A stretch of DNA of 64,000 nucleotides, taken from Thermomicrobiaceae bacterium. GTDB taxonomy: Bacteria > Chloroflexota > Chloroflexia > Thermomicrobiales > Thermomicrobiaceae. Positions 51,051 through 56,310 of the stretch are shown here, piece by piece; the stretch's first letter is position 1; the number at the start of each line of letters is the position of its first letter. The notes beneath the pieces are model-generated. The model was not told the origin of the DNA and made no database searches. It worked only from the letters and a program-made list of their open reading frames with translations. A program made the translations under genes and the position numbers. The stretch covers positions 1 through 64,000 of the forward strand of contig JADBJL010000091.1 of the NCBI GenBank assembly GCA_014874455.1, in the 5' to 3' direction.

Positions 51051-51264
51051 GGAAGTGCCTCCTCTGCAATGCAGGCTCCGGCCCGCGCCGCACTGTCTGC
51101 CCTCGCCTAGTAGCCTAGCGCAGCCGGCGAGCCGCTGCACCGGGCGGGGCGAACAGGCTCACGGTGCACTCAACACCCCCGAGGCTCGGAGTCTTCCCGA
51201 GCTGAGGAGACCTCGTTTCCGGTATAGTCAGCGCAGGGAACCGGTCGACACGAGGTGGGCCACC

Positions 51265-52302
51265 GTGCAGTTCGGGGTATTCGACATCTTTCAGGTGACG
51301 CCGGACGTGCCGGCCGAGCGGGTCTACGCCGAGCGCCTGCGCGACGCCGAGCTCATCGATCGGCTCGACCTCGACTACTACTTCGTGGCCGAGCGCCATT
51401 TCCTCCCGCTGTACCGGACACCGGCCCCGAACGTGTGGCTGGGCGCGGTCGCGGCTCGTACCCGGCGGGTACGGCTCGGCGTGCTGGCGTACACGCTCCC
51501 GCTGCACAACCCCGTGTTACTCGCGGAGCAGATCTCGGTGCTCGACCACCTGAGCCGGGGACGACTCGAGGTGGGAGTCGGGCTGGGACACCGCCCGCAA
51601 GAGCTGGCCAGCCTGGGCATCGACCCGGCTAGGCGCCAGGCGCTCTTCCTCGAGGCGCTGGTACTGATGCGGCGAGCCTGGCAGGGCGAGTCGTTCGATC
51701 ACCCTGGCATCGCGTTCCGGTTCCGCGAGCTCTACGTCGAGCCGCCGTACCAGCGGCCGCACCCGCCCCTCTGGTACGCCGGCACCGACCCGGAAGCCGC
51801 GCGCTGGGCCGGCCGCAGCGGCCTGTCGCTGGCGGTCGGCTTCCGGCCGCTGAGCCAGCTCCAGGCGACCTGTGACGCCTGGCGCGCCGGGCAGGCCGAG
51901 TCCTCGTCGAGCCCGGTGCGGCTCGCGTTGATGCGCTCGCTGTACGTTGCCGAGAGCGACGCGCAGGCCCGCCGAGAGATGGTCGCGGATCTCCGTCGCC
52001 TCGGGCAGCTCCTCCCGGTGTCGCCAGCGGAGGCGACCTCGTCGCTGCAGCCGCTGCGCTCCACCTCGGAGGCCGAGCAGGCGCTCGACCGGCTGCTGGC
52101 CAATGAAGCGCTCATCGCCGGCAGCCCGGAGACCTGTGCCGAGGCGATCGCCCAGGCGGCACGCACACTGCGGCTCGACGTCTTCCTCGCCAACCCCTAC
52201 CTGAGCGGCGTGGAGCCGAAGCGGGTCGAGCGGACGCTCCGGCTGCTGGCCACCGCCGTCCGCCCGCGGGTACGTGAAGCGCTCAGCGCCACAGGTACCT
52301 GA
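51265..52302 (+). CDS. luciferase-like (LLM class) flavin-dependent oxidoreductase
   Basis: The 345-residue TIM-barrel protein shows the luciferase-like pattern: FGVFDIFQVTPD, YYFVAERHFLPLYRTPAPN, VRLGVLAYTLPLHNPVLLAEQ and RGRLEVGVGLGHRPQE. Such enzymes use FMNH2 or F420. The substrate is unknown. I start at GTG 51265 behind GAGGTGG; longer frames upstream lack support. It is divergent from the aldo/keto reductase gene. Confidence 0.87.
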   Translation: MQFGVFDIFQVTPDVPAERVYAERLRDAELIDRLDLDYYFVAERHFLPLYRTPAPNVWLGAVAARTRRVRLGVLAYTLPLHNPVLLAEQISVLDHLSRGRLEVGVGLGHRPQELASLGIDPARRQALFLEALVLMRRAWQGESFDHPGIAFRFRELYVEPPYQRPHPPLWYAGTDPEAARWAGRSGLSLAVGFRPLSQLQATCDAWRAGQAESSSSPVRLALMRSLYVAESDAQARREMVADLRRLGQLLPVSPAEATSSLQPLRSTSEAEQALDRLLANEALIAGSPETCAEAIAQAARTLRLDVFLANPYLSGVEPKRVERTLRLLATAVRPRVREALSATGT

Positions 52303-52461
52303 GCGCACGCAGCGTCGCCCCGTTAGGAGTTCTCTCAGGCAGGCAGCGTGCAAGGCCTCAAGGTCAGAGGCTCACGGGCGAGCGCTGGTTGCACACCCTG
52401 AGATCGAGCCTGGCACGTTGAGCCTGAAAGCGGCGCGAGCATCGGATTCGCTGGGCTCTGC

Positions 52462-53337
52462 TCACCAGTAAGGCGGCGGCTCAGGGAGCGTTTGCCCACA
52501 TCTGCACTGCCCACTGGTCTTCTCATAGTCCACTACCCGGCCGCACTTCGCACAGCGTACCCACATCGCATTCAGACGTTCGGCGCGCCAGACGCTCGTG
52601 TACACGGCGGCTCCGAAATCTGGCCCGAAGAACCTCTTCATCGCCTCGAGGTGGGTCCCGTCGCGAAGGAGTCGCTCAGTGCTTGCCGCGTCTTCCCAGG
52701 CCGTTACGGTCATCAGCCGGTCACCGATGCTGATGCCGATCCAGCCGATGAACCCTGGCATGGCGACCATCTCGGCCTCGATCGCACGGCTGGAATCCTT
52801 GACCTGCTCTCCCTCCTGCCCGGAACGGACCTAGATCAGGGTAATGCTGAACGCCCCTGGTTTGTTCTTCCTGCCGCTCTGAACGGAAACGGCAGAGCCG
52901 AACTGATAGGGGCCCAGGGTATGGGGTAGCACCAGGGTTTGCAGGCCCAACTGCCGCGGCACCTCCCCGGCGTCGAAGTATCCCTGCACCAAGCGAATCT
53001 TGCCCTCCACGACGGTGATGAAGTCGGCTCCCGGCAGCGCGATCGAACGTCCACTCGGCGGAAGGCCCTAGAAAGAACCGGTGTTGGTGCCTTTCATCAG
53101 CCATTGAGTGGCGATTTGTGCATCGTTGACCAGAGTCTCATCCACTATCTCAAACGAGAGGTCCGGGAACGCTCCCCATCGCCGACGGGCATAGGCGCCG
53201 ATGGCTTCGCCGTTGAGTTCCTGGGCTACAGGATCATTGTAGGTACCATCCTCAGCGAACGTCGCGACGATACCCGCGGCATCGCGACGGTTCCAGGCAT
53301 CGAAGTAGGCATGCGCCAAGTGCAACGTGTCCTCCAT
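52462..53337 (-). pseudogene. SnoaL-like plus monooxygenase-like plus zinc-ribbon protein, broken by two TAG codons
   Basis: One frame runs from ATG 53337 (GGAGGTGG upstream) to a stop at 52462, about 291 codons, without any indel, but holds TAG at 53070-53068 and at 52833-52831. The parts are a SnoaL/NTF2-like domain (HAYFDAWNRRDAAGIVATF), then GLPPSGRSIALPGADF, then an antibiotic-biosynthesis-monooxygenase-like half (MPGFIGWIGISIGDR) and a C-terminal ribbon CAKCG, CRCG. Without the stops it would be one continuous three-part protein, perhaps an ester cyclase-like enzyme. The first TAG fits CAG and the second GAG by one base change. It most likely no longer makes the full protein; readthrough is not excluded. 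Confidence 0.72.
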
Positions 53338-53619
53338 CATCCACCTCCACAGGCCGCCACTCACCGCACTGTCTGTGCCGGCAGCGGCCGAACGTGCGAC
53401 CACCAGTCGCCGAATCGAACGCCGGAATCTGTCGCGGTATGCCCTGCAACTGATGCTTCGAATCTACGCCCGGCGACGAGGTGCGGAAATAGTAGAAATG
53501 TGCTGCTTTCGGTTACTGCACGGTAGCAACCACTTCTTCGAGCGACACCGCGGAGCGCCGTCCGCTGTTAGAATTGCGCATCAACCTTGTGATCGAGGAA
53601 CTCATCGGGCAGCAGGGCT
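53338..53619. other. divergent promoter region of the broken pair
   Basis: About 280 bases with somewhat lower GC than the surroundings, between the broken SnoaL-type and LuxR-type genes. It should hold their promoters, but I cannot name clear -35/-10 sets. Confidence 0.35.
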
Positions 53620-54716
53620 ATGAGCGTATCCGAGTGCGCCCGAGACTAGGCATCCGCGGAGATCGAACGGCTGTGCCGCCAGGGGCACGACGTCGAGACG
53701 CTGTGCCGGGAGACGGTCAGATGCGTGAGGCGTATCGTCCCGTTCGAGGCCTACGCCATAGGCACGATGGGTCCTTTGACCAGCCTCCCAACGAGCATAG
53801 CCCACAGTGAGGAGCTGGCCAACGAGGAGGAGACACGCTTCTTCTGGGAGCACATCTATTTCGAGGACGACGTGAACGAATACGGCTGGATGGCACGCAA
53901 GAGAATCGCGGTCGTGCGACTCTCTGATGGCACTCGAGGAAGCCTCGAGCATGCTCTCAGGCATCGGGAGTTCAACAAGCTGAAGGGATTCGGCTATGAG
54001 CTTCGCGCCGTCTTGACGGCCGGGGCCTCCCCTGAAGCGGATTGTGCCTGATTCGGGAGGCGGGCAGCCCGGACTTCAGCGAACTCGAGGTCGAGTTCGT
54101 CAAGCGGATCTCGCCGCACCTCGGCGCTGGCCTGCGCGCGGCGGCGCTGAGACCCCGAAGCCAACTCGAACCCGTGGGCGATGAAACTGCAGGCGTGCTC
54201 ATCCTCGACCGCTGCGATCGCATCGTGTACCGCAACACGGCAGCGGATCGCCTCTTGCAGAAACTCGGAGGAACTGCGACTGGAGCGAACTACCTTCCAT
54301 TTGTCGTCTGGGCGGCGGTAGGCGCGCTGCGACGAGCGGTTGCGAATGCCCCGGATATCTCCAGCGCGACAAACCTCTACGTCCGCGGGCGTTCAGGAAC
54401 GTGGTTCACGCTGCAGGCATCTCCGGCCGAGTCGCGGCCGGGCGGAGCATCCGGGACGATGGTGGTCATTATCCCCGCCGGGCCGAGAGCACTGGCGGGG
54501 TTGCACGAGGCTGCCTATAGCTTGACCGGCAGGGAAAGGGAAGTCGTCAACTTCGTCGCGCGCGGCTACTCGACACGCCAGATCTCCGCTGCCCAATTCA
54601 TCTCCAAGTCAACCGTTCAGAACCACTTCTCGCCCATTTTCGAGAAGGTCGGGATCAGGAGCCGACGAGAGCTGGTCAAACGCCTCTTCCTCGACAGCAT
54701 GATGCTGCATGGGTAG
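53620..54716 (+). pseudogene. LuxR-type transcription regulator, broken by TAG and frame change
   Basis: The N-terminal part (frame of ATG 53620) reads ERLCRQGHDVETLCRETV and RRIVPFEAYAIGTMGP but has TAG at 53647-53649 and ends at TGA 54049-54051. The C-terminal part is in another frame from about 54036 and reads LCLIREAGSPDFSELE, a sensor region, and the LuxR HTH (LTGREREVVNFVARGYSTRQI) to the TAG at 54714. Between them the second frame also shows a TGA at 54033. The join at about 54030-54042 requires an insertion of two bases or loss of one. The intact homolog would be a regulator with a sensor domain, and it stands divergent from another broken gene, a probable former target. Confidence 0.75.
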
Positions 54717-54906
54717 AGCGGCGCTCGGCCGGCCGCTCACCCATCTGGGTGCGGAACTAGCCAGGCGCCGCGCCGCTGGGGGCGAAGGGTGACATTGAGA
54801 ACCGTTCGCCTGAGTTTGCCGGTGGAGCAGGCATATCCTTCTACGGCAGCTCGGCGTGAACGGGTAAGGAGTGGCGCGCAAACCGCTGCGCAGGTGCTGC
54901 TCGGGC
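54717..54906. other. intergenic spacer
   Basis: This spacer lies between the broken regulator and pntB, which converge. No clear hairpin or gene. Confidence 0.4.
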
Positions 54907-56310
54907 CTAGGCCGCCTTGACCGCCTCGATCAGCTTGATCAGCGACTCCTTGGCATCGCCGAACAGCATGCGGGTCTGCGGCATGTGGAACAGCTCGTTC
55001 TCGATACCGGCGAAGCCAGGCCGCATGCTGCGCTTGAGCACGATCACGTTGCGCGCCTGGTCGACATTCAGGATCGGCATGCCGTAGATCGGGCTGGAGG
55101 GATCGGTGCGCGCCGCCGGGTTGACCACGTCGTTCGCGCCGACGACCAGCGCCACGTCGGCCCGCTGGAACTCGTCGTTGATCTGCTCCATCTCGTAGAG
55201 CTGGTCGTACGGCACGTTGGCCTCGGCCAGCAGCACGTTCATGTGCCCGGGCATGCGACCGGCCACCGGATGGATCGCGAACTTCACCTCGACTCCGCGC
55301 TTCTCCAGCTCGACGGCCAGCTCGCGCAACTGGTGCTGGGCTTGCGCGACCGCCAGCCCGTACCCAGGCACGATGATCACCTCGTTGGCATAGGCCATCA
55401 GCACAGCCGCGTCTTCGGGCGTGATTTCCCGGATCGGCTTAGCTTCAGCGACCGCCGCGGCGCGGCCCGACACGCGGAACGCGCCGAACATCACGTTGGC
55501 GAGCGAGCGGTTCATGGCCCGGCTCATCAGGACAGTGAGCAGGGAACCAGAGGCACCCACCAGCGCGCCGGCCACGATCAGGATCTGGTTGTCCAGCACG
55601 AACCCGGTGGCAGCCGCAGCGAGCCCCGTCATCGAGTTCAGCACCGCGATCACCACCGGCATGTCGGCGCCGCCGACCGGCAGCACCAGCAGGACGCCGA
55701 ACAGCAGGGCGAGCGCGAACAACAGCCAGACGACCGCCACCCCGCCGGCCAGCCCCAGCAGCCAGACCCAGAGCGCGACGATGCCGAGGAAGGCGGCCAC
55801 GTTCACCGGCAACTGGAGCGGGAACCGCACCGGGCGCCCGGTCATGAGCTCCTGCAGCTTGGCGAAAGCGATCAGGCTCCCGGTGAGCGCGATCGAGCCG
55901 ATCGTCGTGCCGAAGGCGACCGACACTGCTTCGCCGCTGCTGACGGCCCCCGAGGCGGCGAAGCGCTGGAACTCTGCCACCGAGACGACCGCCGCGGTGC
56001 CGCCACCCATGCCGTTGAACAGCGCGACCATCTGCGGCATGGCGGTCATCGGCACCACTCGTGCCAGGTAGACGCTGGCCACGGTGCCGACGCCGATCCC
56101 GAAGACCATCACTGCGACGTTGGCCGCGCTCCAGGTGATGTGCCGATCCAGCAGTGTAACCACGACGGCCAAGAGCAGCGCGGCCGCGGAGATCTGGTTC
56201 CCCGAACGGGCCGTCCGTGGCGCGCTCATCCGCTTCAGGCCGAAGACCAGCGCGACCGCGGACACGAGGTAGGCAAGGTCGATCAGGGCGTCTCGATAGT
56301 TCTCGATCAC
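54907..56310 (-). CDS. pntB: NAD(P) transhydrogenase subunit beta
   Basis: A membrane subunit with about nine spans in the first 250 residues and the NADP(H)-binding domain III at the C-terminus (VPGYGLAVAQAQHQLRELA, GRMPGHMNVLLAEANVPYD, ALVVGANDVVNPAART). Transhydrogenase couples proton flow to hydride transfer from NADH to NADP+, giving NADPH. It is the third gene after pntAA and pntAB in the minus direction, overlapping pntAB by 4 bases. 467 residues fits the family. Confidence 0.95.
   Translation of the reverse strand: MIENYRDALIDLAYLVSAVALVFGLKRMSAPRTARSGNQISAAALLLAVVVTLLDRHITWSAANVAVMVFGIGVGTVASVYLARVVPMTAMPQMVALFNGMGGGTAAVVSVAEFQRFAASGAVSSGEAVSVAFGTTIGSIALTGSLIAFAKLQELMTGRPVRFPLQLPVNVAAFLGIVALWVWLLGLAGGVAVVWLLFALALLFGVLLVLPVGGADMPVVIAVLNSMTGLAAAATGFVLDNQILIVAGALVGASGSLLTVLMSRAMNRSLANVMFGAFRVSGRAAAVAEAKPIREITPEDAAVLMAYANEVIIVPGYGLAVAQAQHQLRELAVELEKRGVEVKFAIHPVAGRMPGHMNVLLAEANVPYDQLYEMEQINDEFQRADVALVVGANDVVNPAARTDPSSPIYGMPILNVDQARNVIVLKRSMRPGFAGIENELFHMPQTRMLFGDAKESLIKLIEAVKAA

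Follow-up and report, generated by a model that had tools for sequence, protein, structure and literature searches.

An enzyme gene with two in-frame TAG codons, probably a young pseudogene, next to a broken LuxR-type regulator

Results

The 64,000-nucleotide stretch of DNA analysed here (the window) contains a gene for a SnoaL/NTF2-like domain, a linker, an ABM-like domain and a zinc ribbon (52462..53337, minus strand; 291 codons followed by TGA), which is interrupted by two in-frame TAG codons. We consider it very probable that this gene is a young pseudogene in a decaying regulator-enzyme islet, because the enzyme copy is broken, the neighbouring regulator is broken, and the segment that holds them is missing in the closest relatives. 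The original prediction had left a choice between a young pseudogene and amber readthrough. The pseudogene is much the better supported of the two: the broken regulator, the absence of the segment in relatives and the lack of amber-decoding machinery all favour it, whereas readthrough has gained no positive support. The decayed LuxR-type gene and the 2.6-kb segment are new relative to that prediction.

A single frame with two internal stops

When re-read codon by codon, the minus-strand frame runs from an ATG at 53337 to a TGA at 52464-52462 with no frameshift, and it contains two internal stops only, both TAG: the first at codon 90 (53070-53068) and the second at codon 169 (52833-52831). A random frame of the same composition is expected to carry approximately 8.3 stops per 291 codons, and the chance of finding no more than two is about 0.01. 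Homology is stronger evidence for a real gene frame than this stop-count statistic: a profile built from intact homologs covers the entire enzyme span (E = 1e-138), with both TAGs inside the match. The prediction of one frame, two TAGs and no frameshift is thus borne out by both the re-reading and the profile.

Protein-like sequence had also been said to continue beyond the stops, and homologs that span them do exist. Eight uninterrupted full-length homologs, with 50-70% identity, the same three parts and the same length, align over both TAGs. One belongs to a different genus within the family (L003), three from Chloroflexi/SAR202 metagenome-assembled genomes (MAGs; L023-L025), and three from other families of the same phylum (L104-L106). 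The closest, L022 (69-70% identity), lies in a MAG labelled Proteobacteria, which suggests either that the gene moved between phyla or that the contig was mis-binned; it adjoins outer-membrane porin-like and amylosucrase-like genes. The three-domain family is rare, with a match in 2 of 158 genomes of the class and, among 400 genomes sampled from the phylum, in 6 (one of these six to the C-terminal part only), and a search of plasmids matched the SnoaL half only. Genome G178 encodes an ABM-like and zinc-ribbon protein with no SnoaL domain (L112:9066-9998), perhaps starting at an internal ATG, and this protein adjoins a large gene that resembles a polyketide-type ketoreductase/dehydratase by sequence.

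None of the eight intact homologs has a stop codon at either TAG column. The first TAG, within the SnoaL-like domain, aligns with A/Q/G/R/G/Q/M/A. The second, where the first ABM-like strand ends, aligns with T/H/S/E/E/W/Q/D; judged from this alignment, the two columns hold no conserved residue. Gln and Glu had been proposed as the replaced residues. The two homologs that share the local Q-G-L-P-P context (FQGLPP) both carry Gln at the first column, while the second column is variable, with Glu in 2 of 8. Since neither column is conserved, the guess is half right: it holds for the first TAG, as far as the nearest relatives go.

Architecture of the encoded protein

The predicted order of SnoaL-like domain, linker, monooxygenase-like domain and zinc ribbon proves to be right. 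The SnoaL/NTF2-like domain occupies residues 1-130 of the intact protein and is recognised by Pfam in the window copy (E = 4e-21, 75.6 bits versus a curated cut-off of 28.4). By profile and predicted fold, its best structural matches are AclR, SnoaL2 and SnoaL (PF07366; PDB 2gey, 2gex, 1sjw), and the NCBIfam scores are under the curated cut-offs. In the case of the ABM domain (PF03992), the window copy scores below the cut-off (E = 0.13, 12.9 bits versus 23.1), and the profile matches three of five homologs, with a best E of 2e-6; residues 160-250 are predicted to follow the order strand-helix-strand-strand-helix-strand. The zinc ribbon gives a weak Pfam match. Four cysteines within the last 35 residues are invariant across homologs and form a CxxC...CxC pattern (C262, C265, C278 and C280 in L022 numbering), a putative metal-ligand pattern that the window copy retains. 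The AlphaFold model is of moderate quality (pLDDT 76, pTM 0.52).

No full-length family model for the combination of SnoaL, ABM-like domain and zinc ribbon was found in this analysis; the case brings out an unnamed three-domain family. The family names suggest that the protein may be an enzyme that modifies a polycyclic or polyketide-like compound.

The positions of the stops bear on gene fission, by which the three stretches would be made as separate functional proteins. The stand-alone-looking ABM-zinc-ribbon gene in G178 speaks for such an arrangement. However, in the modelled homolog the first TAG falls after strand 74-84 and before strand 98-110, so that the NTF2-like SnoaL fold would lose its last two strands, the second comes where the first ABM strand ends, and the next ATG after it (52770) is already 20 codons inside the ABM-like domain. 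Neither TAG, therefore, cleanly splits foldable units, and we regard fission as extremely improbable.

A broken regulator in a segment absent from the same genus

Divergent from the enzyme gene lies a LuxR-type regulator gene (about 53617..54716, plus strand), whose C-terminal GerE helix-turn-helix scores above the cut-off (51.8 bits versus 23.5) and whose frame is broken upstream. Comparison with full-length intact homologs (L079, 50%; L080, 46%) reveals three lesions on the plus strand: an in-frame TAG near the N-terminus (53647..53649), aligned to an Arg of L079; a one-base deletion (54025..54038, 14 bases versus 15 in L079); and, after the deletion, a TGA at 54033-54035. It is likely that this gene is the regulator of the adjoining enzyme. 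In genome G039 (L113:3651-5851), an intact homologous regulator is divergent to a small SnoaL-like ORF and an ORF that by eye resembles an EthD-type dimeric barrel, so that parts fused in the window's enzyme have their counterparts here in separate genes. By analogy, this arrangement suggests, without proving, that the window pair is a regulator-enzyme unit.

Both broken genes lie in a 2.63-kb segment (52267..54898) that is absent from three genomes of the same genus (G001, G002 and G003), none of which has a copy of the enzyme elsewhere. The GC content of the segment is 62.6%, versus 67.3% for the window. On its left is an intact luciferase-like monooxygenase gene (51244..52302, plus strand) that is syntenic in the same-genus genomes, and on its right an intact pntB-like gene (54907..56310, minus strand, stop codon TAG) whose same-genus orthologs are 95-99% identical. 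The flanking genes are 2.63 kb apart in the window versus 15-24 bases apart in G001 and G003. In G002 they are about 180 bases apart, with some 170 bp of unrelated sequence at the junction, which indicates that the site where these convergent genes meet varies. Close to a contig end, the luciferase-like ortholog of G002 (L101:1-962, G002:C20) seems to be divided between two frames. The simplest reading is that this lineage acquired the segment laterally; the other same-genus genomes may instead have lost it. We found no convincing direct or inverted repeats of mobile-element or transposon ends at the segment borders, and no excess of promoters or terminators in the segment over shuffled sequences.

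This comparison also allows us to assess whether the TAGs could be absent from the real organism, through consensus or assembly error, or present in part of the population only, through strain mixture. The assembly is a draft of 114 contigs with an estimated contamination of 4.6%, which leaves some room for such a cause. Yet the neighbouring gene carries three more lesions, while conserved genes in the flanking part of the window, from 46 to 64 kb, are uninterrupted relative to a same-genus genome; errors would thus have to be confined to one 2.6-kb segment, which is unlikely, and we give error or strain mixture a small chance. The contig itself belongs to the genome, since synteny with the same genus holds on either side of the segment.

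Selection on the enzyme copy

Between the window copy and L022, dN is 0.18 and dS is 0.78, so that dN/dS is about 0.23, and all three stretches of the frame are constrained. At 84 otherwise invariant columns the window copy has 7 private changes, versus 4-17 for the intact copies in a leave-one-out comparison; the count of polarised amino-acid changes, set against L022, is 9 versus 14. A custom two-ratio codon model assigned the window branch a dN/dS of about 0.5-0.7 (2dlnL about 19). We dropped this value as proof of relaxed selection because the intact control branch, L022, behaved identically, and saturation in other parts of the tree most likely produced the signal.

Given that constraint is not visibly relaxed, inactivation is probably recent relative to the split from L022. 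As the enzyme frame also lacks any indel, its two stops must have arisen very recently or else be tolerated. By themselves, the selection data are compatible with the tolerated stops proposed in PMC7918605.

Decoding of UAG and the case for readthrough

Global recoding of TAG, which the original prediction had considered unlikely, can be rejected. The release factor RF1 is present, intact and above its curated cut-off; none of the 43 tRNA genes genome-wide has a CUA anticodon; and TAG terminates about a third of genes (99 of 273 ORF-called genes in a 399-kb sample). TAG is, as had been stated, a normal stop in the window: pntB ends in TAG where the same-genus ortholog has TAA at the matching place. 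Pyrrolysine is ruled out as well, as the best match to the PylS family is far under the cut-off and is probably PheS. We discarded extension beyond stop codons as a genome-wide readthrough test, since it is confounded by downstream genes in the same frame.

Nor does the identity of the two stops call for a special explanation. Between 39% and 63% of the accessible nonsense mutations in the enzyme gene give TAG, and two of two would be TAG about a quarter of the time. Because about half of the possible nonsense mutations yield this codon, two TAGs are unremarkable.

Amber readthrough would consist of near-cognate decoding at both TAGs, yielding little full-length protein and perhaps acting as a brake on expression. 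Belinky et al. (2021) proposed conserved bacterial in-frame stops as tolerated readthrough, arguing that many such stops with no other decay are tolerated (PMC7918605), and the window gene fits this in that its frame is otherwise intact, its constraint is not visibly relaxed and its stops fall at non-conserved positions. Against this stand the intact RF1 and the failure to find a suppressor tRNA or Pyl system in the genome; two serial stops would multiply the loss; no other homolog examined has a stop at the TAG columns; and the neighbouring regulator is frameshifted, a kind of decay beyond repair by readthrough. Structure is not unusual after the first TAG (z = +2.0) and only mildly so after the second (z = -1.8). 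We therefore judge readthrough to be very unlikely. An early form of stop-gated expression, in which low-level readthrough with no dedicated machinery keeps a costly acquired enzyme almost silent yet under purifying selection, has in our estimation a slightly smaller chance still.

Discussion

The young-pseudogene reading implies the following history. In this lineage, a segment with a divergent LuxR-type regulator and a SnoaL-ABM-zinc-ribbon enzyme would have come to lie between the luciferase-like gene and pntB; it was presumably acquired before decay began, when regulator and enzyme may have been a functional pair. The regulator would have been killed by the early TAG, the one-base deletion and the TGA, and the enzyme by its two TAGs. 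If these terminate translation, the product would be an 89-residue truncated SnoaL domain, followed at most by reinitiated fragments that lack the first ABM strand.

As a pseudogene, the locus carries little weight beyond annotation, where gene callers would list short proteins, two or three in number, that are spurious. It nonetheless illustrates cleanly an early stage in the decay of a regulator-enzyme pair whose distribution is laterally patchy.

It is useful to place the gene beside known systems. The intact SnoaL-ABM-zinc-ribbon proteins described above share its domain order, length and cysteines, but unlike the window copy they have no internal stops. The polyketide cyclase-hydroxylase family of SnoaL, SnoaL2 and AclR resembles its N-terminal 130 residues by profile and predicted fold, although those structures lack the C-terminal ABM-like domain and zinc ribbon. 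The cases of Belinky et al. (2021) are similar in that a TAG interrupts an otherwise constrained frame, here opposite CAG in the closest homolog; their stops, however, recur in orthologs of several species, whereas the window TAGs occur in no ortholog and the neighbouring gene is frameshifted (PMC7918605). Nonsense pseudogenes in laterally acquired bacterial segments have in common with the window locus in-frame stops, a decayed neighbour, patchy presence and lower GC content. Compared with that class, the window enzyme has no indel and a constraint that is not yet visibly relaxed, as befits an early stage of decay.
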